Shown here in pieces: positions 3,941 through 55,972 of a stretch of 56,508 nt of DNA; within the stretch, counting starts at the first letter, position 1; each line of letters starts with the position of its first letter. Below the pieces are notes generated by a model. The model made no database searches. It was not told where the DNA came from and saw only the letters and a list, made by a program, of their open reading frames with translations. The stretch lies in the IMG/VR virus record IMGVR_UViG_3300042402_005492, positions 1 to 56,508 of that record. The stretch is one strand, 5' to 3'. Source of the DNA: a virus. The translations under genes were made by a program, and so were the position numbers.

Positions 3941-4321
3941 ATGGCAAGACAATTACCAAATATAGTAGTAGGAACATCATTAAAAATGAGGGATAGATTG
4001 GGGTTTAGAGATTTTGTCTTAAAAGTCAATACTGATACATTTTTATATGAGTTCCAACCAACTGAATTAGAAGTAATTAATGATGGTATATTTATTTTAT
4101 ATTTAAGAAACAAACGATTTCTTATAGATGATTTACAGGTTGATACTACGAAAGATTACATAGACATATACTTATATGGAGTAAAACAACCACAAGACCG
4201 TTATGTGATCGATGTGATTGTAAATGATATAGTAATTACATTTACAGAAAGTATTACTCGTTTACCAAATGATGTAGATGTTAATGATTTTATAGTAAAA
4301 GGTAAAATAGCAGAAGTATAA
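3941..4321 (+). CDS. Small structural protein, third of a related trio
   Basis: A 126-residue protein. Residues ~65-126 contain YIDIYLYGVKQPQDRYVID and end in NDFIVKGKIAEV, the same strand layout as the two upstream proteins. The N-terminal half is different and includes FVLKVNTDTFLYEFQPTELE. The start follows an A-rich tract (AAAATAAAAAA) in place of a Shine-Dalgarno site, and the TAA shares its last base with the ATG of the giant gene. Coupling to that gene suggests a linked structural role. No family was recognised. Confidence 0.55.
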   Translation: MARQLPNIVVGTSLKMRDRLGFRDFVLKVNTDTFLYEFQPTELEVINDGIFILYLRNKRFLIDDLQVDTTKDYIDIYLYGVKQPQDRYVIDVIVNDIVITFTESITRLPNDVDVNDFIVKGKIAEV

Positions 4322-7300
4322 TGGCAGTATTAATTCCTCGTAAACAAATTGAAGAACAGAATGATATTAGTGCATCATTTAGAATTGGTGGTGATTTATC
4401 TGTAACGGGTAGTGCCGTAATAGGAGGTTCTTTTGCAGCTGACTCAGAATTTTTTTTAGGTAATCAACTAACAGATAGGGGAGAAATAACAGGATCTGTA
4501 TTCTTAACAGGTTCACTAATTATAGATGGAGATTTTGGATTTGAGGATGTAAATAGGATATTAAATGTAACTGCTTCTCAAGCACTACAATCTCAAGATA
4601 CTTTTAGATATGCGGGTATATTAGCTAGAGATTTTGGTGCCAATGTTCCTACTTTATATGTTTCATCAACGGATGGTGATGATAATAATGATGGTAGAAG
4701 TATTCAATTTCCATTAAGAACTGTAAAAAGAGCGGCTCAATTAGCAAGTCCTGGATTTGATGGTAGATATGGGATACCATTAGGTTCTCTTTTTTCAGGA
4801 TATGTAATTAGAGTTCAAGCAGGTACTTATGTAGAAAATAATCCTGTAATACTTCCTAAAAATACAACAATTTGGGGATCTGGACTTCGTATAACTAAAA
4901 TAAATGCATTAAATCCAGAACAAGACCTTTTCCATGTAAATAGTGGTTGTTACATAGCAGAAGTAACAATGGGTGGGTTAAGATTATGGCCAGACCAAAT
5001 AAATCCTGAAAGAGGATTTGCAGTAGCATTCCAACCAGGAGCATTTATTACAACATCGCCATACATACAGAACTGCTCTCAAATATCAAATCAAGAGAAT
5101 TCATTCACCGAACTTTATGAGGATATTCCACCAGGAGGTGGTGGTCTTTATGTTAATGGTGATGTAATAAATCCAGACTCTCCATTGGCTTCAATGGTAT
5201 TGGATGCCTATACGCAGATTTCTCCAAACGGAGTTGGATGTTTGGTAAATGGTAGGGGCTTCATTCAGTTGGTATCTTTCTTTACCAACTTCTCATACTA
5301 TGCAATTAGAGTAAACAATGGTGGACATGCTACCCTAAACAACTCAAACATTTCATTTGGATTATTTGGTATGTTTGCATCTGGCTCAAGAAAAATTGAT
5401 GCTATTAGTGGTGGTAATGAAGATGCTAGACAAAGAGTAAGAAGGAGTTATTCTGCAATCGTTGATGTTCTAAATAAAGGATTAGAAGATGGGTTACCAT
5501 CAGTAACAACTGTAAATACTGCAGAAGGTATAAAGGTAACACAATTTACACAATCTTTCTCAAATAATTTAGCTACTCAAACGGAAGTAAATAAAGTTAG
5601 TGAAGATTTTCGTATTATAAGTGAAATAGTAGCATCGGGACCTAATAATTACCCAACACTTTTAGCAAAAAGTAGTGATAGAGGATACGATATAAATAAT
5701 CCATATAATATTAGTGGTGGGACTCAACTTACCTCATCTATTTCAGCATCTGCTAGTGATTTATTACAAATTAGTTCATCTTATGCCGATTTATTAGGTA
5801 TATTCGCGGATGGTACAGGATCTTTTATATTCAAATCAAACAATAAAGATGTTGTAAAGGTTAGCAATTTAGAACCCGTATCAGCATCGATTACTGCTTC
5901 AATAGGAACCACATTATACAATAATATAAGTTCATCATTTGATACTGTTATAAAAATAGTGAATGGTGGAACACTTCCTATTATTGTACCAAATACTTCC
6001 GCATCTTTTTATTTAGGAGATATCGAACCGGTATTACCTTCTCAACCTATATCCAGTAGTATAATAAATGTTGTAAGTAGTAGTTTTTCTATCATATACA
6101 ACATATTAGATAAAGGTACTGGTAGTTCTATATTGGATATACCTGAAGATCATCAAACTGATTTTGATGTTAATAGAGGTGCGAATAATAGTGCTTGGGT
6201 ATTTGATGGTGTTGGTAATAATCCAACTCTAACCCTATTTAGAGGTACTAAATATATTTTCAATGTATCAGGTAGTTTTGCTAAGTTTACTAATCCATTC
6301 TTTATTCGTACTCAACCTACAAGTGGATTTATACAAGGATTGGATTATAATACTGGTGTAATAAATAATGGAGATGATTTTGGTGTAGTTACTTTTACAG
6401 TTCCGTTTAACGCACCAAATGAATTATATTATGTATCACAAAACTCATCTCAAATGGTGGGTAAGTTTAATATTGTAAATTCATCAGCAACTCCTTTTTC
6501 GTTGATTGAGAATACAATGTCATATCCAACTTTAGTAACTGGTTCGGTAAGCGCGAGTGTTGTTGGTGAAGTAACTAGTTCATATAATACATTAAACTCT
6601 AATTTAGATTTCTTAAAGAATGAAACTATCACTTATATTTCTTCATCTTGGGATGGGTTTGAGTATAACGAAACAACTTGTAAAAGAGACATAGGATATA
6701 TTGTAGATGCAGTTGCTAATGATTTATTATTTGGAGGAAATAGTGGGAGTATTACTGCGGGATTGGAATACTATTTAGTATCAAGTTCAGCAACAACATC
6801 ACAAAAGGATGCAACACTAACCGCTATTGATTTTTTAAGTAAAACATCTCAAAATCTATTAAGAAGTTCTTCATTTCAACAAATCCAAACCGGAAGTAGT
6901 GAACGATACGCGTTGTGGAGTAGTATTATAGATAATAAACCATTTATTCAGGCAGAAACTATTGCGTACCTTTCTTCATCTTGGAGTGAGTTTGAATATA
7001 ATCAAGTGAGTTGTAGTAGAGATATTGGATTTATCTTAAATGCGGTAGCAACTGATTTACTTTATAGAGGTAATGAAAGAAGTGTGATTGCTGGAGATTT
7101 TTATTATCGTTTCCCATCTGTAGCGGTTACTGATCAATTAATACAGACGGTAGATGGTATAAAATATGCAAGTGGAACTACACTAAATATAATTGAAGGA
7201 AATCAATTCCAATTTGCAGAAACTTCAACATCGGCATCTGTATCTCTTTTGAGACAAAATCGTCAATTGATACAAAATGAAACTATTGAGTTTATAAATG

Positions 7301-20200: not shown

Positions 20201-23200
20201 GGTGAATTATATTATTTCGATGTAAGTGGAGTTTCGGCATCACATCCTTTTGCTTTAAGATTAGCAACAGGTTCAAATGCAGAAGTACCTGGTACAATAA
20301 ATAATGATCCAATAAATGGTTTATATGGTAGTGGTTCACTAATAGAATATAGAGTACCGGATAGTGCACCTAATAGTATAGTATACCAATGTGCGGTTCA
20401 CTCTAATATGATTGGTATTATACTAATTGTAAATAAAAACGGAACATCGGGAACAAGTGGTACTTCTGGTACATCAGGTACAAGTGGTACTAATGGCACT
20501 TCGGGTACAAGTGGAACTTCAGGAACAAGTGGAACTTCAGGAACAAGTGGTACTTCTGGTACTTCTGGAACCAGTGGTACATCTGGAACCAGTGGTACAT
20601 CCGGAACTTCTGGAACTTCTGGAACAAGTGGTTCATCTGGCAGTAGCGGTACATCAGGTTCATCTGGAAGTAGTGGTTCATCTGGAAGTTCTGGAAGTAG
20701 TGGAACATCTGGAAGTAGTGGTTCATCTGGAAGTAGTGGTTCATCTGGAACAACAGGTTCTGCTGGAACATCGGGTTCATCTGGAACATCTGGTTCATCT
20801 GGAACATCTGGTAGTGGGGGATCATCTGGAAGCAGTGGTTCAAGTGGTTCTTCAGGAAGTAGTGGTTCGTCTGGTACAACTGGTTCAAGCGGCACATCCG
20901 GTAGTGGAGGAACATCTGGTTCTTCTGGCAGTGGAGGAACATCTGGAAGTAATGGTTCCGCTGGTACATCTGGTAGTGGGGGAACATCTGGTTCATCTGG
21001 TACAAGTGGTGTAAGTGGTTCAGCCGGTACTTCGGGTAGTAGCGGTACATCTGGAAGTAGAGGTACTTCAGGTAGTAGCGGTACATCTGGTAGAGATGGT
21101 TCATCTGGAAGTAGTGGTACATCTGGTAGAGATGGAACTTCGGGAACATCAGGTACAAGTGGAACTTCGGGAACAAGTGGAACTTCAGGAACAAGTGGTA
21201 CTTCAGGAACAAGTGGTACTTCAGGAACAAGTGGTACTTCAGGAACAAGTGGTACTTCTGGTACAAGTGGAAGCAGTGGAAGTAGTGGAACATCTGGTAC
21301 AAGTGGAAGTAGTGGAACAAGCGGAACAAGTGGAACAAGCGGTAGTGGTGGTACTTCTGGAACTTCTGGAAGTAGTGGTACATCTGGAACTACTGGAAGT
21401 AGTGGTACAAGTGGTACATCTGGAACAAGTGGTACATCTGGAACTTCTGGAAGTAGTGGTACAAGTGGTACATCTGGAACAAGTGGTACATCTGGAACTT
21501 CCGGAACGAGTGGAACATCTGGTATAGATGGTACATCTGGGACAAGCGGAACTTCGGGAACAAATGGAACATCTGGCTCAGCTGGAACTTCGGGTACAAG
21601 TGGTATAAGTGGTACTGATGGAACTTCTGGAACATCTGGTATAGATGGAACTTCGGGAACTTCGGGAACTTCGGGAACAAGTGGTACTTCTGGAACAAGT
21701 GGAACCTCGGGAACAAGTGGAACTTCGGGAACAAGTGGAACTGCTGGTTCATCTGGAACGAGTGGGATAGATGGAACTTCTGGAACTAGTGGAACTAGTG
21801 GAAGTAGTGGTACTTCTGGAACTAGTGGTACAAGCGGTACTTCTGGTTTAGATGGAACTTTCTTCGGTAGTAGTGGTACATCAGGAACAAGTGGCACTTC
21901 TGGTACAAGTGGAAGTAGTGGTACATCAGGAACTAGTGGTACAAGTGGTACATCTGGTTTAGATGGTACATTCTTTGGAACTAGCGGAACTAGCGGAACT
22001 AGCGGAACTAGTGGTACTTCTGGTACTTCTGGGACAAGTGGAACATCGGGAACAAGTGGTACTTCAGGTACAAGTGGAGTAGATGGAACATTCTTTGGTA
22101 GCAGTGGTTCATCGGGAACAAGTGGAACATCTGGTACAAGTGGTAGTAGTGGAACAAGTGGTACATCAGGAACAAGTGGAACTTCTGGTTTAGATGGTAC
22201 ATTCTTTGGTTCATCTGGAACAAGTGGTACTTCTGGAACATCTGGTACTAATGGAACTAGTGGAAGTTCGGGTACTAATGGTACTTCAGGAACATCTGGA
22301 ACAAGTGGAGTTGATGGTACATTCTTCGGTAGTAGTGGAACTACTGGCACGAGTGGTACAAGTGGAACTACTGGTACAAGTGGAACTACTGGTACGAGTG
22401 GTACTTCTGGGACAAGTGGAGTGGATGGAACCTTCTTTGGAAGTAGTGGAACTACTGGTACGAGTGGTACTTCTGGTGTAAGTGCTACTGATGGAACTAG
22501 TGGTACAAGTGGAACATCTGGTTTAGATGGTACTTTCTTCGGTAGTAGTGGTACAAGTGGAACTGCTGGAACAAGTGGTACTAATGGTACATCTGGTGTA
22601 AGTGGTACTGATGGTACATCCGGAACAAGTGGAACTTCTGGTTTAGATGGCACATTCTTTGGTTCATCTGGTACAAGTGGTACATCAGGAACTTCTGGAA
22701 CTGCTGGTATAAGTGGTACAAGTGGTACAAGTGGAAGTAGTGGAACTAGTGGATTAGATGGTACTTTCTTTGGTTCGTCTGGTACAAGTGGAACCGCGGG
22801 AACATCGGGCACTGCTGGAATTAGTGGAAGTAATGGAACAAGTGGTAGTAGTGGAACAAGTGGTACATCTGGTTTAGATGGTACATTCTTTGGAAGTAGT
22901 GGAAGTAGTGGAACTAGTGGAAGCAATGGTACTAGTGGAATTAGTGGTACATCAGGAACTTCTGGACTAGGTACAAGTGGAACAAGTGGTAGAGATGGTA
23001 CATTTTTCGGAAGTAGTGGTTCATCTGGAATTAGTGGAAGTAGTGGAAGTAGTGGGGTTAGTGGCACTTCGGGAACATCTGGTGTAGGTACAAGTGGTAC
23101 TTCTGGATTTTTACTACTATCTGGAACTACTGATAACGGAGTATTAACATATATCAATTCATCAGGACAAGGACAGGTTGAGTCAACCCTAACTTTTGAT

Positions 23201-25612: not shown

Positions 25613-28600
25613 ATGGATTATATAGGAAAAAACCCAAATGGATTAAATCAGCTCAGTTCTAGTTTAGTTTCTATTTTTGTAAGTGGAAGTAGAGTAGTTG
25701 ATATCAATACGGGTTCAGTTCAAGTTTACGGACAAGTTTCATCATCATTATTTAGAGGTGATGGTAGTGGATTATTCAATATACCGGCGGAGTCAATCGG
25801 TGATATTAACCGAATACGATCCGGTTCTGCTGAATTAGAAATATCCCCAAATAGAGGATTGGTAGGAAATACCAATTTATCATTATCGGGTTCTGCTGAT
25901 GTAAGTGGATCATTAAGAGTTGGGAAAGACCTTAATGTAAGTGGTAAAATAACTGCAGAATTAATAAATGTAAATATCGTTTCATCATCTATAATTTTTT
26001 CATCTGGAAGTAATATTTTTGGAGATAGTATAACTGATAAACACCAATTTACTGGTAGTTTAGGTATAAGTGGTAGTATTTTTGTTGATAAATTTGATGA
26101 AGATGAAACTACCAACGATGTATTGGTAATAAACCAATCTACCCAAAAAATAGGATTTAGAACTGCAGCCGCATCATCTGGTACTTCTGGTACATCTGGT
26201 TCATCTGGAAGTAGTGGTACAACGGGAAGTAGTGGTACATCAGGTTCTTCTGGGACATCTGGTAGTGGAGGAAGTAGTGGTACTTCGGGTACAAGTGGAA
26301 GTAGTGGTACTTCAGGTACTTCTGGTTCTAGTGGAACATCTGGTTCTAGTGGAACAACCGGTAGTGAAGGAACATCTGGTTCTTCTGGAAGTAGTGGTAG
26401 TAGTGGTTCATCTGGAACGAGCGGAACTTCAGGAACAAGTGGAAGTAGTGGTACATCTGGAAGCAGTGGCACATCTGGTTCGTCTGGAACTACAGGTAGT
26501 GAAGGAACTTCTGGAACATCAGGAACTTCTGGAACAAGTGGAACTTCTGGAATAGATGGAACCTCTGGAATAGATGGAACATCTGGTTCTTCTGGAGTAG
26601 ATGGTACATCGGGAACTTCTGGTATAAGCGGAGCGGGTGGTAGTAGTGGAACATCTGGAAGTAGTGGTTCATCTGGAAGTAGTGGAATAAGTGGAGCTGG
26701 TGGTTCAGCTGGAACATCAGGATCTTCTGGAAGTAGTGGTACAAGTGGTACTTCTGGTTCTGCTGGTACAAGTGGTACTTCTGGTACTTCTGGTTCATCT
26801 GGTGTAACTGGTGCTGGAGGTGGTAGTGGTTCATCTGGAACTGCTGGAACAAGTGGTAGTAGTGGTTCATCTGGAACTTCAGGAACTAGTGGAAGCAGTG
26901 GTTCATCTGGTAGTAGTGGAGAAAGTGGAAGTAGTGGAACTTCAGGAATATCTGGAAGTAGTGGAGAAAGTGGAAGCAGTGGTTCATCTGGAAGTAGTGG
27001 AAGTTCTGGTATATCAGGTACTTCAGGAACAAGTGGAGTAGATGGTTCTAGTGGAAGTAGTGGAATATCTGGAAGTAGTGGAATAGATGGAACATCTGGT
27101 TCTAGTGGTGTTTCTGGTTCATCTGGAAGTAGTGGTATAAGTGGTACATCAGGAACTAGTGGAAGTGCTGGAACGAGTGGTTCAGTAGGAACTAGTGGTT
27201 CAGCAGGAACTAGTGGAAGTGCAGGAAGTAGTGGTACATCTGGAAGTGGTGGTACTTCTGGCTCTAGTGGAACAAGTGGAAGCGGTGGTACATCTGGTTC
27301 TGGTGGAACATCAGGAAGCGGTGGAACATCTGGGACTAGAGGTACTGCTGGCAGTGGTGGAACTTCTGGTTCTGGTGGTACATCTGGTTCTGGTGGTACA
27401 TCTGGTTCTGGAGGAACATCTGGTTTATTAGCATTAACTGGTACAACTGATAATGGTGTAATTACCTTAAACGGAACTGCTCCAAACGCAACGGTTGAAA
27501 GTAATTTAACTTTTAATGGTGCTACTAATTTATTAACAGTTACTGGTGATGTAACTGCAACCTCTTATTATAATGCGCAAGCAAATAGTGGATATCGATT
27601 AAGAAATGCTGCTAATAGTGCAAATGTGGGTGGATTTACTCGTAGAGGTTTATGGGAAGGTAATGCAAATTATGACCCTGCTTTATGGGCTGAAACTGGA
27701 TATGGTCTTTATTTTTATACAGATGGAAGTGCTACAATAAAAGGTTTATTGGATACAACCGGTAATTTTACTTTATCAGGTAATTTAGTATCAGCACAAG
27801 TTAATACTGGACAAGGTTTAACTGAAGTTCATTTGATGAACCAAAATATTCGTACAACTGATGATGTAACTTTTGGTAACATAACAGTTTCTGGAGCAAG
27901 TAAAGGATTATATTTTACAGGAGGTAATAACAGAATATATTTTGCTGGTAATAGAGCGATAGAAGGAAATGGAACTAATCTGCAAATAGGAGAAGGACAT
28001 TCTCTAACTCTATTACAAAGTACAACCACTAGTGTCGGTGGAGCTACATCAGGAAGAATTAACTTTGGAACAGATGGACCCGATATTGCACTTTTTAGAG
28101 ATAATAGCTATGATTTAGTTTTACAACAGGGAGCTTCTTCTGGCAATGCACTATATATGGCAGGAGCTGGAAATGTTGTTGTTAGCATTGATAGTAATAA
28201 CAATGAAACTGATAGAAAATTCATAGTAGGTAGTAATGCAATAAAATCATCAAATGAATTATTTTCCGTAAATGAAAGTGGTACTGTATTTGCATCGAAT
28301 AATTTTAGAGCACCAATATTCTATGACTCCAACAACACAGGATTTTATGCAGATCCAAATAGTACTTCTAAATTTAATACATTAAATGTGGATAACCTTA
28401 ATACGGGTAACTACGTTAATATTGGATATACTAATAACGGTGGTGAATCAATAGCAACATCTGCATTTAGAGGAATTGATTTCCACACTACTGGAGATTT
28501 TAATTATTATATAGGTAAACCTGCAGGTGCGTGGACACAACCTTTACACATCCATTTCTACACCGGCATCAGGTTAAGAGCACACCAAGCATATGGTGGT

Positions 28601-53024: not shown

Positions 53025-53597
53025 ATGAAAAATTTTAAAATCGAATACAATGTTAATAATGGTAAACAAATTGAATTAAGAACAATTGATTTATCTAAAG
53101 AGTTAAGTGTAGTTCAATTTGGTAAGCTTGGTTTTAAAAAAGTAGCTGATATGGTTTTAACCGATTCAAATAACATTGGATTGAAAATGATGTATAAAGA
53201 TTATATTTCAACAAAAGAATACAATGAACATTGTCATGGTGTTTATTTAATTGTTATCGATGGTAAAATTGTTAAAATCGGTGGAACTGAAACGGGTTTA
53301 GCAAAAAGATGGGGTTCTTACAATAATGGAACTGATAAAATTAGAAATGGCGCTGCGAACGGTTCTGTGACAAATTATTATGTTGCAACCGCACTTAAAG
53401 CCGCATTAAAAACTGGTCACTCAGTTGAATGGTATTATAAAAAAATGAATTACGAAACTAGAACTTTAAATTTATATGGTATAGAAATTACTGAAAATGT
53501 ATGTGTTGATGGAACATATAAGATGCATGAAAAAACACTATTGGAATTTTATAAAAATAAATCAAATAATTACCCAAAATTATCGGCTAATTCATAA
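53025..53597 (+). CDS. GIY-YIG-type nuclease, probable restriction endonuclease
   Basis: A 190-residue protein. GVY (72-74), VKIG (83-86), an Arg in LAKRWGSY (R95), Glu in MHEKTLLEFY (E169) and a late Asn (N189) follow the order of a GIY-YIG active site. The N-terminal ~60 residues lack known motifs. Small GIY-YIG enzymes include restriction enzymes such as Eco29kI-type and homing enzymes. Here the next two genes encode the halves of an adenine methyltransferase, so a restriction role is favoured. Gap to the next gene is 8 nt. The DNA is more AT-rich than its neighbours, which hints at transfer. Confidence 0.65.
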   Translation: MKNFKIEYNVNNGKQIELRTIDLSKELSVVQFGKLGFKKVADMVLTDSNNIGLKMMYKDYISTKEYNEHCHGVYLIVIDGKIVKIGGTETGLAKRWGSYNNGTDKIRNGAANGSVTNYYVATALKAALKTGHSVEWYYKKMNYETRTLNLYGIEITENVCVDGTYKMHEKTLLEFYKNKSNNYPKLSANS

Positions 53598-53605
53598 TTA
53601 TATAT

Positions 53606-54520
53606 ATGATAAAATTTGATGGTATTATTACCAACCCCCCTTATGCTGATTCATCCCATGCTGAACAGAAAAATACATTATGGAGAAAGTGGTTTACATT
53701 TGATAAATTAATTAAAGAGAATGGAGTTTTCGCTGAAATAATTCCATCATCTTGGATGGGTAGTCCGCCTTTGATAAAAGATAATTTTTTAGATGAAAAT
53801 TTAAAAATTTCTAAAAATATAACTCACATAAATTTAGATGAATGTGGTAAATATTTTAAAGGAGTTGGTCAAAAATTTTCTTATTTTGTTTACACTAAAG
53901 ATGAATATAAAAACGAAACAAATTTAGTGGTAAGAAATATTGATGGCAGTATTGAGTCATTTACCGAAAACTTAAATAATGTTATTTTTGATGTATTTCC
54001 AAGAGACTTAAGCCCACTCGCAATATCTATTTTAAATAAAACAATTGTAAATACAAAACCTATTGGTATACTGAATACAACGGTTTGTCATGGAAACAAT
54101 AAACATTTATGGAAACATAATCCTCAAGATGAGTTTATACATGCGGTTGAAAAAACTCCAAATAAAACTATTTTTTATAAAAAACAACATCCGCATCAAG
54201 GTATCCCTAAAATTATAATACCAACAACTACTTATTATAGATCAATGTATTATACTGAAAACGGTACATCTCAAAGTTTTTGTTATTATAATCTTAAAGA
54301 TGGCGAAGAACGAGATATAGTATTAAATAACTTAAATAATAAACTATTTGATTATATCAACGAATGTTTTAGATATTCAAATTGGAATTCTGTAAATCTT
54401 TTAAAAAAATTACCCACATTACCATTAAATATTCAATTAACTGATAGCGAAATATATGAGTTTTTTAACTTAACTGAGGATGAAATTTCACATATAAATA
54501 AAATAATCTTATGGAGATAG
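53606..54520 (+). CDS. Adenine methyltransferase, catalytic/target-recognition half
   Basis: A 304-residue protein that begins FDGIITNPPYAD: the catalytic motif IV N-P-P-Y is at residues 10-13. Then FTFDKLIKENGVFAEIIPSS and a ~200-residue variable region likely to be the target recognition domain. The AdoMet-binding motif I is absent; it is in the next gene. In usual gamma-class N6-adenine methyltransferases motif I comes first, then IV. Here the halves are separate and in reversed order. The stop overlaps the next ATG by 10 nt, which suggests that both halves are made together and must combine to be active. Recognised by motif; function is inferred. Confidence 0.7.
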   Translation: MIKFDGIITNPPYADSSHAEQKNTLWRKWFTFDKLIKENGVFAEIIPSSWMGSPPLIKDNFLDENLKISKNITHINLDECGKYFKGVGQKFSYFVYTKDEYKNETNLVVRNIDGSIESFTENLNNVIFDVFPRDLSPLAISILNKTIVNTKPIGILNTTVCHGNNKHLWKHNPQDEFIHAVEKTPNKTIFYKKQHPHQGIPKIIIPTTTYYRSMYYTENGTSQSFCYYNLKDGEERDIVLNNLNNKLFDYINECFRYSNWNSVNLLKKLPTLPLNIQLTDSEIYEFFNLTEDEISHINKIILWR

Positions 54521-54990
54521 CCGTTTATAAAAATTTTGTTCGTTCTTATGGGTATATGAGTGGTATTGCTAGAAATAAATCTCGACAAGACTCTACACAA
54601 GAATACTTTACTTGTCAAGAATTTGTAGAAGAGGTACTAGATAAAGTTGAATACTCAAAAAAAGACATTTTTACAAATGCTGATAATAAACTATTAGATA
54701 ATGCAGCGGGAGATGGGCAATTTTTAACGGAAGTTGTAATTCGTAAAATGGAAAGAAGCCATTGTACCTTAGAACAAGCACTTTCTACAACCTATGGGGT
54801 AGAGTTAATGGAAGATAATGTAAAGTTGTGTAAAGAAAGATTAGCAGGTCCAAATCCAACACAAGAAATTTTGGATATTATTGATAGAAATATAGTATGT
54901 GCAGACGCTTTAACTTATCATTATCGGTTTGATGGCACTCATCCAACAGCTTCACTAACCGAATTAAAAAAAGATGAATTCTTTACTTAA
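54511..54990 (+). CDS. Adenine methyltransferase, AdoMet-binding half
   Basis: A 159-residue protein. FTCQEFVEEVLDKV (33-46) resembles motif X, LLDNAAGDGQFLTEVV (61-76) is motif I with a D-x-x-x-G-D-G core, YGVELMEDN (95-103) is motif II, and VCADAL (129-134) is motif III. It ends soon after motif III, just where motif IV would follow; that motif opens the preceding gene. It has no N-P-P-Y of its own. The likely product is one subunit of a two-part methyltransferase. An alternative start at 54556 (MSGIARNKS) is also plausible. This is an N-half gene placed downstream of its own C-half. Confidence 0.7.
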   Translation: MEIAVYKNFVRSYGYMSGIARNKSRQDSTQEYFTCQEFVEEVLDKVEYSKKDIFTNADNKLLDNAAGDGQFLTEVVIRKMERSHCTLEQALSTTYGVELMEDNVKLCKERLAGPNPTQEILDIIDRNIVCADALTYHYRFDGTHPTASLTELKKDEFFT

Positions 54991-55135: not shown

Positions 55136-55972
55136 ATGGCTATTAACTTAGACGCAATCAGAGGTAGACTGAACAAACTACAAAACACAACAGCTAAGAC
55201 TGTAGAACAATGGAAACCAGCTCCTGGTAAACATCAAATTCGATTAGTTCCTTACAAATTCAATAAGGAAAATCCTTTTATCGAATTACTATTCCATTAC
55301 GGAATTAACAACAAAACTTATCTATCACCACAATCTTTCGGTAGACCTGATCCGATTGTGGAATTCGCTGAAAAACTGAAAAGAATGGGCGATAAGGAGG
55401 ACTGGAAAAGTGCCAGAAAAATGGAACCAAAACTTAGAACTTTTGTACCAGTATTGGTAAGAGGTGAAGAAGGTGATGGAGTTCGTTTTTGGGGATTTGG
55501 AAAGACGGTATATCAAGAAATTTTAGGATACATTGCAGATCCTGATTACGGAGATATTACTGATGCACATCAAGGAAGAGATATCGTTGTTGAAATTGTA
55601 TCAGCGGAAGATAGTGGAACATCTTATCCAGTAACAACTATTAGAGTTAAACCAAAAGAAACACCTTTGGCTGATACTAAAGAAGCAACTGATAAGTTTC
55701 TAAATGAGCAAAAGAACATTACTGAACTTTACCAAGAACTTAGTTATGCAGAATTGAAAGCGGTATTAGAAGGTTGGTTAAATCCATCAGCAGGTGGAGA
55801 TGATGATGTGGTAGAAGCCGTATCAACAGAGCAACTTTCTAATGTAGCATCAACAGGAAAAACTCAATCGCATGATATGGGTGGACCTACATCACCATCA
55901 AAGGAAGTAGAAGCACCAACTAAAAAGTTGGATGATGTAGCTGCAGCATTTGATGACCTATTCAATTCTTAA
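55136..55972 (+). CDS. gp32: Single-stranded DNA-binding protein, gp32-like
   Basis: A 278-residue protein. The N-terminus (MAINLDAIRGRLNKLQN) is the basic, cooperative-binding part of gp32-like proteins. The core has KHQIRLVPYKFN, PFIELLFHYG and VRFWGFGKTVYQEI, the OB-type region. The C-terminus is acidic and ends DDVAAAFDDLFNS, the partner-binding tail. It covers single-stranded DNA in replication and recombination. There is no Cys in the whole protein, so the zinc-binding subdomain of T4 gp32 is replaced: the segment SPQSFGRPDPIVEF stands where T4-like proteins have C-P-x(n)-C-P-I-C. It lies just before UvsX, as in a replication module. Confidence 0.85.
   Translation: MAINLDAIRGRLNKLQNTTAKTVEQWKPAPGKHQIRLVPYKFNKENPFIELLFHYGINNKTYLSPQSFGRPDPIVEFAEKLKRMGDKEDWKSARKMEPKLRTFVPVLVRGEEGDGVRFWGFGKTVYQEILGYIADPDYGDITDAHQGRDIVVEIVSAEDSGTSYPVTTIRVKPKETPLADTKEATDKFLNEQKNITELYQELSYAELKAVLEGWLNPSAGGDDDVVEAVSTEQLSNVASTGKTQSHDMGGPTSPSKEVEAPTKKLDDVAAAFDDLFNS

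Follow-up and report, generated by a model that had tools for sequence, protein, structure and literature searches.

A probable phage-borne restriction-modification set with an adenine methyltransferase apparently divided between two genes in swapped order

Results

Three adjoining genes in a 56,508-nucleotide viral sequence (IMG/VR record IMGVR_UViG_3300042402_005492, positions 1 to 56,508; hereafter the window) probably constitute a phage-borne, Type II-like restriction-modification set, in which the methyltransferase would be rebuilt in trans from two proteins. The first gene encodes a GIY-YIG nuclease of the same type as the restriction endonuclease Hpy188I. The second and third encode what look like the complementary halves of one gamma-class N6-adenine methyltransferase, with the C-half placed before the N-half. 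Computational analysis establishes the genes, their motifs and family identities, the complementarity of the two halves and the conserved linkage of all three. The features of the locus are as follows.

53025..53597, + strand: GIY-YIG nuclease, Hpy188I restriction-endonuclease type, 190 aa (profile matches and active-site residues)
53606..54520, + strand: methyltransferase C-half, 304 aa, from motif IV (NPPY) to the target-recognition region (Pfam, PHROG, profile and Foldseek matches)
53633..53644, + strand: catalytic motif IV, NPPY, C-half residues 10-13 (sequence and C-half alignment)
54511..54990, + strand: methyltransferase N-half, 159 aa, with motifs X, I, II and III, ending just before motif IV (profile and PHROG matches)
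54511..54520, + strand: 10-nt overlap of the C-half stop and the N-half start, ATGGAGATAG (same overlap in L054, L021 and L083)
54601..54612, + strand: motif X (EYFT), N-half residues 31-34 (E31, F33 and T34 invariant in 33 sequences)
54697..54723, + strand: motif I (DNAAGDGQF), N-half residues 63-71, SAM-binding glycine loop (G67 and G69 invariant, D63 and F71 nearly so, in the 33-sequence alignment)
54802..54804, + strand: motif II acidic residue E98 (YGVELMEDN) of the N-half (invariant in 33 sequences)
54904..54906, + strand: motif III acidic residue D132 (CADAL) of the N-half (sequence; conserved block NIVCADAL in the alignment)

Locus organization

The three open reading frames, their order and the 10-nt overlap lie where an earlier note, made from the sequence alone, had placed them. 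The C-half starts 8 nt downstream of the nuclease gene, and its overlap with the N-half gene likely allows translational coupling of the two. The order nuclease, C-half, N-half is also found in three further phage lineages (L054, L021 and L083), each with the identical 10-nt overlap (ATGGAGAT...). The product of the next gene (55136-55972) resembles the single-strand binding protein gp32 (Pfam gp32, 3e-13) and is closest to those of Microcystis phage Mel-JY01 and Flavobacterium phages; on this basis, the window is most likely a fragment of a T4-like phage. Elsewhere in the window, giant ORFs contain collagen-like Gly-Thr-Ser repeat tracts (20441-23100 and 26175-27440), which give rise to a long antisense ORF (20398-23157, minus strand) that is probably no gene.

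The nuclease resembles Hpy188I

The active site of Hpy188I consists of Y63, K73, R84, Y88, E149 and Q169 (PMC2630997). The window nuclease has the equivalent set, Y74, K84, R95, Y99, E169 and N189, with an asparagine replacing the last glutamine; the first five residues are invariant in a three-sequence alignment. Its second tyrosine is replaced by lysine (VKIG), a trait reported for R.Hpy188I and some homologues (PMC2630997). A profile built from the window, L054 and L021 nucleases found Hpy188I (3oqg) as its best match (E 3.7e-12) and matched T4 endonuclease II more weakly (E 1.2e-4); the nuclease also matches the endonuclease family phrog_1111 (6e-10). The GIY-YIG-like nuclease that had been read from VKIG, R95, E169 and N189 is thus borne out by its catalytic residues and the Hpy188I match. 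The nuclease has no Pfam match, and neither homing enzymes as closest relatives nor NUMOD-type DNA-binding domains were found for it. A homing endonuclease was rejected as the leading reading of this protein, since its top match among PDB sequences is the restriction enzyme Hpy188I.

In the Hpy188I family, a methyltransferase flanks 19 of 25 members, one of them in a cyanophage, and the partner in the Hpy188I branch is a gamma-class N6 methyltransferase (PMC2630997). A DNA methyltransferase likewise adjoins the nuclease in the window, L054, L021 and L083. Because the nuclease is Hpy188I-like and this family is regularly linked to methyltransferases, the suggestion of a restriction-modification system appears stronger than when it was first made. 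A metagenome contig of the same branch has a two-ORF methyltransferase that was ascribed to 'rearrangement(s) and frameshift(s)' (PMC2630997), and which may be the same natural split.

A different reading is that the split methyltransferase is real but is an orphan with a protective role, while the GIY-YIG protein is no more than a neighbour that serves in homing or in the breakdown of host DNA, in the manner of T4 SegA or EndoII. Free-standing GIY-YIG homing endonucleases are numerous in T4-like phages, and T4 EndoII is among the matches of our profile. In addition, L177 and L091 carry the split pair without a GIY-YIG gene, and its absence beside the C-half relative in L177 implies that the methyltransferase pair can stand alone. 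We nevertheless consider this reading unlikely, as the far stronger match is to a Type II restriction enzyme that shares the VKIG lysine, four divergent lineages show linkage of the nuclease to this split pair, and Shigella phage PSD9 has a GIY-YIG domain (LEM-3-type; PF22945, 4e-9) fused in front of its C-half.

By eye, the split pair of L177 is surrounded by PurA-, dUTPase-, ThyX-, IMPDH- and ClpP-like genes (L177:364-9658). Cyanophage loci L043-L051 have a protein of 187-190 aa between the methyltransferase and the N-half (e.g. L051:5409-5972); a PD-(D/E)XK-like D...QxK pattern is visible in it by eye, and it perhaps stands in place of the GIY-YIG protein.

Two apparent halves of one gamma-type enzyme

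The C-half opens at motif IV, in agreement with the earlier reading of its sequence; among 20 C-halves, N10 and P12 of the NPPY are invariant and P11 is nearly so. It has no SAM-binding motifs of its own. Its Pfam match to Eco57I (2e-5, 25.0 bits) falls just under the cutoff of 25.3, and it matches phrog_3689, a DNA methyltransferase family (3e-14). A profile built from 14 C-halves found M.TaqI (3e-5) and residues 157-304 of CamA (3e-4). The AlphaFold2 model of the window C-half is confident (pLDDT 88, pTM 0.84), and Foldseek searches with it retrieved CamA (2.4e-11; TM 0.64 by query length), M.TaqI (7e-9) and also BrxX. In BFVD, the model matches a 305-aa phage protein labelled Eco57I methylase (TM 0.90), which, judged by its length, is probably another C-half. 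Direct matches of the C-half or the nuclease were not found in named phage genomes.

The N-half carries R25, E31, F33, T34, D63, G67, G69, Y95, E98, D102, N103 and D132, of which F33, T34, G67 and G69 are kept in 33 of 33 trans N-halves. It ends 27 residues past motif III, so that the expected series of motifs X, I, II and III, stopping before motif IV, is indeed present. The window N-half has no Pfam match and matches phrog_11371 (6e-15), phrog_4376 (4e-13) and phrog_21201 (1e-12). The profile of 33 N-halves matches residues 24-160 of CamA (E 9e-7) and M.BseCI (5e-5). A pattern-based scan for the N-half in cellular genomes of ~85,000 species gave one match, on a short MAG contig; within the limits of such a scan, the family looks phage-borne.

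The two profiles therefore tile CamA (residues 24-160 and 157-304), adjoining each other almost without overlap. Their junction is the strand just before NPPY, where the halves come within a few residues of each other: the N-half end YRFDG is aligned with the CamA sequence YKFD, and KFDGIITNPPY is the start of the C-half. Since the regions matched by the two profiles lie side by side in a gamma-class enzyme of solved structure, the halves look like complementary pieces of a single enzyme. The tiling supports the original proposal that the two genes jointly specify one gamma-class N6-adenine methyltransferase, and speaks against each half belonging to a different, unrelated family: in comparisons with single-chain methyltransferases, CamA is common to both halves (also by the C-half model), with M.BseCI matched by the N-half and M.TaqI by the C-half. 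A naturally fused, permuted homologue from an Aeromonas phage (L063), modelled as one chain, gave a poor model (pLDDT 61, pTM 0.39).

Motifs X, I, II, III and IV all have gamma-type sequences and are shared between the two proteins. The linear order of the gamma class, X-I-II-III-IV...TRD, is not followed, as IV...TRD precedes X-I-II-III in the gene order. The pair is thus related to the gamma class and would work like it, without being a standard member.

In the proposed restriction-modification set, the N-half protein would bind S-adenosylmethionine through motifs X, I, II and III, and the C-half, which contributes NPPY and the target-recognition region, would pair with it, so that the two form a gamma-type N6-adenine methyltransferase in trans. 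DNA without the methyl mark would be cut by the Hpy188I-like enzyme. The phage could in this way mark its own DNA, and cut the unmarked host chromosome or the DNA of competing phages. We infer the assembly of the halves, their activity, a specificity common to nuclease and methyltransferase, and the biological target.

Distribution and module arrangements

The N-half profile located ~385 encoding places in viral contigs. Clustering of 126 N-half ORFs at 90% identity gave 65 groups, 60 of which have usable flanks; pattern-based scans capture only a portion of the family, and these and the following counts are not independent events, since many of the loci share descent. A methyltransferase part adjoins the N-half in 59 of the 60 groups: 55 have a motif-IV ORF beside it by pattern, and inspection added four more, three with a variant motif IV (L108, L089 and L101) and one with a contig-truncated C-half (L064). 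The remaining group is L093. Nine groups, with L176-L178 as a tenth, have a C-half starting at motif IV, and the C-half comes first in nine of these ten lineages. A search in which the C-half was the sole query returned 7 loci (~4 distinct lineages), all 7 with an N-half directly downstream.

The same break, exactly at motif IV, is accordingly found in ten phage lineages. This qualifies the novelty ascribed to the window in the earlier note: the arrangement is no one-off but is spread widely among phages, and the swapped order in a single chain is already in GenBank for Aeromonas phages. The part of the claim that stands is that no published counterpart was found, as the open-access literature yielded nothing relevant on a split or permuted gamma-class N6 adenine methyltransferase, an absence that is not proof.

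The two modules occur in four arrangements: N-C fused in one chain (e.g. L028); C-N fused in one chain of ~384 aa, annotated in GenBank simply as adenine methylase (Aeromonas phages 65, CC2 and G2; XDQ84367.1, L058/L061-L063); C then N as split genes (the window and others); and N then C as split genes with a 1-nt overlap (L032). The beta-class linear order, IV...TRD-X-I, is present as gene order in the window and within a single chain in L058. Pfam gave no match to the beta-class model N6_N4_Mtase for either, the DNA methylase families matched being Eco57I only (window) and N6_Mtase/Eco57I (L058). Because the motif sequences and best matches are gamma-type, the swapped order looks like a separate arrival at the order of the beta class. 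As all four arrangements exist in phages, these modules provide a worked example of a possible route from gamma to beta-like order, by splitting, swapping and fusing.

Larger relatives and the possible role of the N-half

In many relatives, a long helicase-like stretch precedes or is fused to the methyltransferase part, with weak ResIII matches in 4 of the 7 long proteins scanned; the window is a minimal version without the helicase. The N-terminus of this stretch appears GIY-YIG-like by eye in several relatives.

Many of the neighbouring methyltransferases are longer, with a lobe of their own before motif IV. Regular expressions, which are approximate, detected motif X in 7, motif I in 14 and both in 2 of 39 such cis lobes, and for nearly half of the 39, no similarity to the N-half profile could be detected. 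Motif X or I has been lost from most cis lobes, and the key residues persist in the separate N-half, which suggests that SAM binding in many of these systems may be done by the trans N-half. In L028 and L009, an apparently intact cis lobe coexists with a trans N-half, which may therefore have another or additional role.

The N-half could accordingly be a regulatory or accessory SAM-binding protein that acts on the adjacent methyltransferase as activator, inhibitor or chaperone; its retention beside methyltransferases with their own lobe, occasionally with intact motifs, would allow this. At least ten lineages, however, combine an N-half with C-halves devoid of any SAM-binding lobe; the tiling of one enzyme by the two profiles and the existence of fused C-N chains also argue against an accessory protein, which we regard as improbable.

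A methionine lies 7-11 residues before motif IV, where the split C-halves begin, in 52 of 53 longer relatives, compared with 2 of 16 bacterial Eco57I-family controls. Strong ribosome-binding sites precede 11% of these conserved methionines and 9% of other internal ATGs (rank test p 0.02, on loci that are not independent), which is no convincing support for a functional internal start. The methionine is possibly a shared ancestral residue.

Tandem arrays and possible recombination seams

L012 (1712-6486) contains five tandem C-half-only genes, each beginning at motif IV and 19-30% identical after it (51% in one pair), followed by a single N-half gene. In L099 (1478-8516), five tandem methyltransferases share 92-96% identity as far as motif IV and 24-46% beyond it; L096 (1671-8456) has a similar array, and both end in one N-half gene. 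Shortened copies of the N-half 5' end lie between array units (L012:5131-5190; L099:2666-2725, 3976-4035, 5319-5378 and 6655-6714), as if each added unit had brought the beginning of the N-half gene with it and the copies were insertion scars. These observations point to probable recombination at two constant seams, one at motif IV and one where the N-half gene begins. Phages may possess a modular kit, to which we give an even chance, with one conserved SAM-binding half acting in trans with many interchangeable catalytic and target-recognition halves, and with arrays (L012, L099) that would supply several specificities, swapped at these seams. At L036, the last 41 residues of a Dam-like (DPPY) methyltransferase (337-1494) are ~80% identical to the N-half tail, which suggests recombination at that locus.

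Selection

All three genes are under purifying selection, with pN (0.11-0.32) far below pS (0.60-0.72) in the pairs window/L054 and L021/L083. Splits and rearrangements are often degradation, and the two-ORF precedent beside an Hpy188I homologue was so explained (PMC2630997), but it is very improbable that the halves result from the decay of a broken methyltransferase, given this selection, the recurrent and conserved split point and 10-nt overlap, and the intact catalytic and SAM-binding motifs of the window.

Comparison with known systems

If assembled as proposed, the pair would be a natural adenine methyltransferase with its SAM-binding lobe apart from the catalytic and target-reading lobe, kept as exchangeable parts; the split enzymes AquI and EcoHK31I are C5 methyltransferases cut elsewhere. 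Should one N-half serve several C-halves, target specificity would amount to a plug-in cartridge, which could serve in building programmable or split m6A writers. The locus would also extend the tools of T4-like phages by a compact restriction set of the Hpy188I type.

Like members of the Hpy188I family, the window combines the same active-site set with a gamma-class N6 methyltransferase partner, as in the Hpy188I branch; unlike them, its partner consists of two genes in swapped order and its last active-site position is Asn instead of Gln. The gamma-class enzymes CamA, M.TaqI and M.BseCI (Pfam Eco57I) share the motifs and fold of the window pair, and both halves match CamA, whereas the chain in the window is cut before motif IV and its order is swapped. 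To our knowledge, the known gamma-class members are single chains with the order X-I-II-III-IV...TRD. The beta-class amino-methyltransferases have the motif order of the window genes and the fused Aeromonas chain, IV...TRD-X-I-II-III, but the motif sequences and best matches of the window are gamma-type.

M.AquI and M.EcoHK31I make one methyltransferase from two polypeptides, as would the window pair. The break in AquI lies in the variable region, and in EcoHK31I motif IX alone is set apart (PMC3404938). Both are C5 enzymes, while the window encodes a putative N6 enzyme with its SAM-binding and catalytic lobes separated. Among phages, the Aeromonas phage 65, CC2 and G2 chain has the C-half followed by the N-half as in the window, but fused, and no GIY-YIG gene is annotated beside it. 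In Shigella phage PSD9 (ORF103/ORF102) and cyanophage S-CAM7 (_075/_076), a methyltransferase part is followed by an overlapping N-half gene, as in the window, and PSD9 also shares a GIY-YIG domain, there fused in front; the two differ from the window in an extra N-terminal segment before motif IV and in their annotation as hypothetical.
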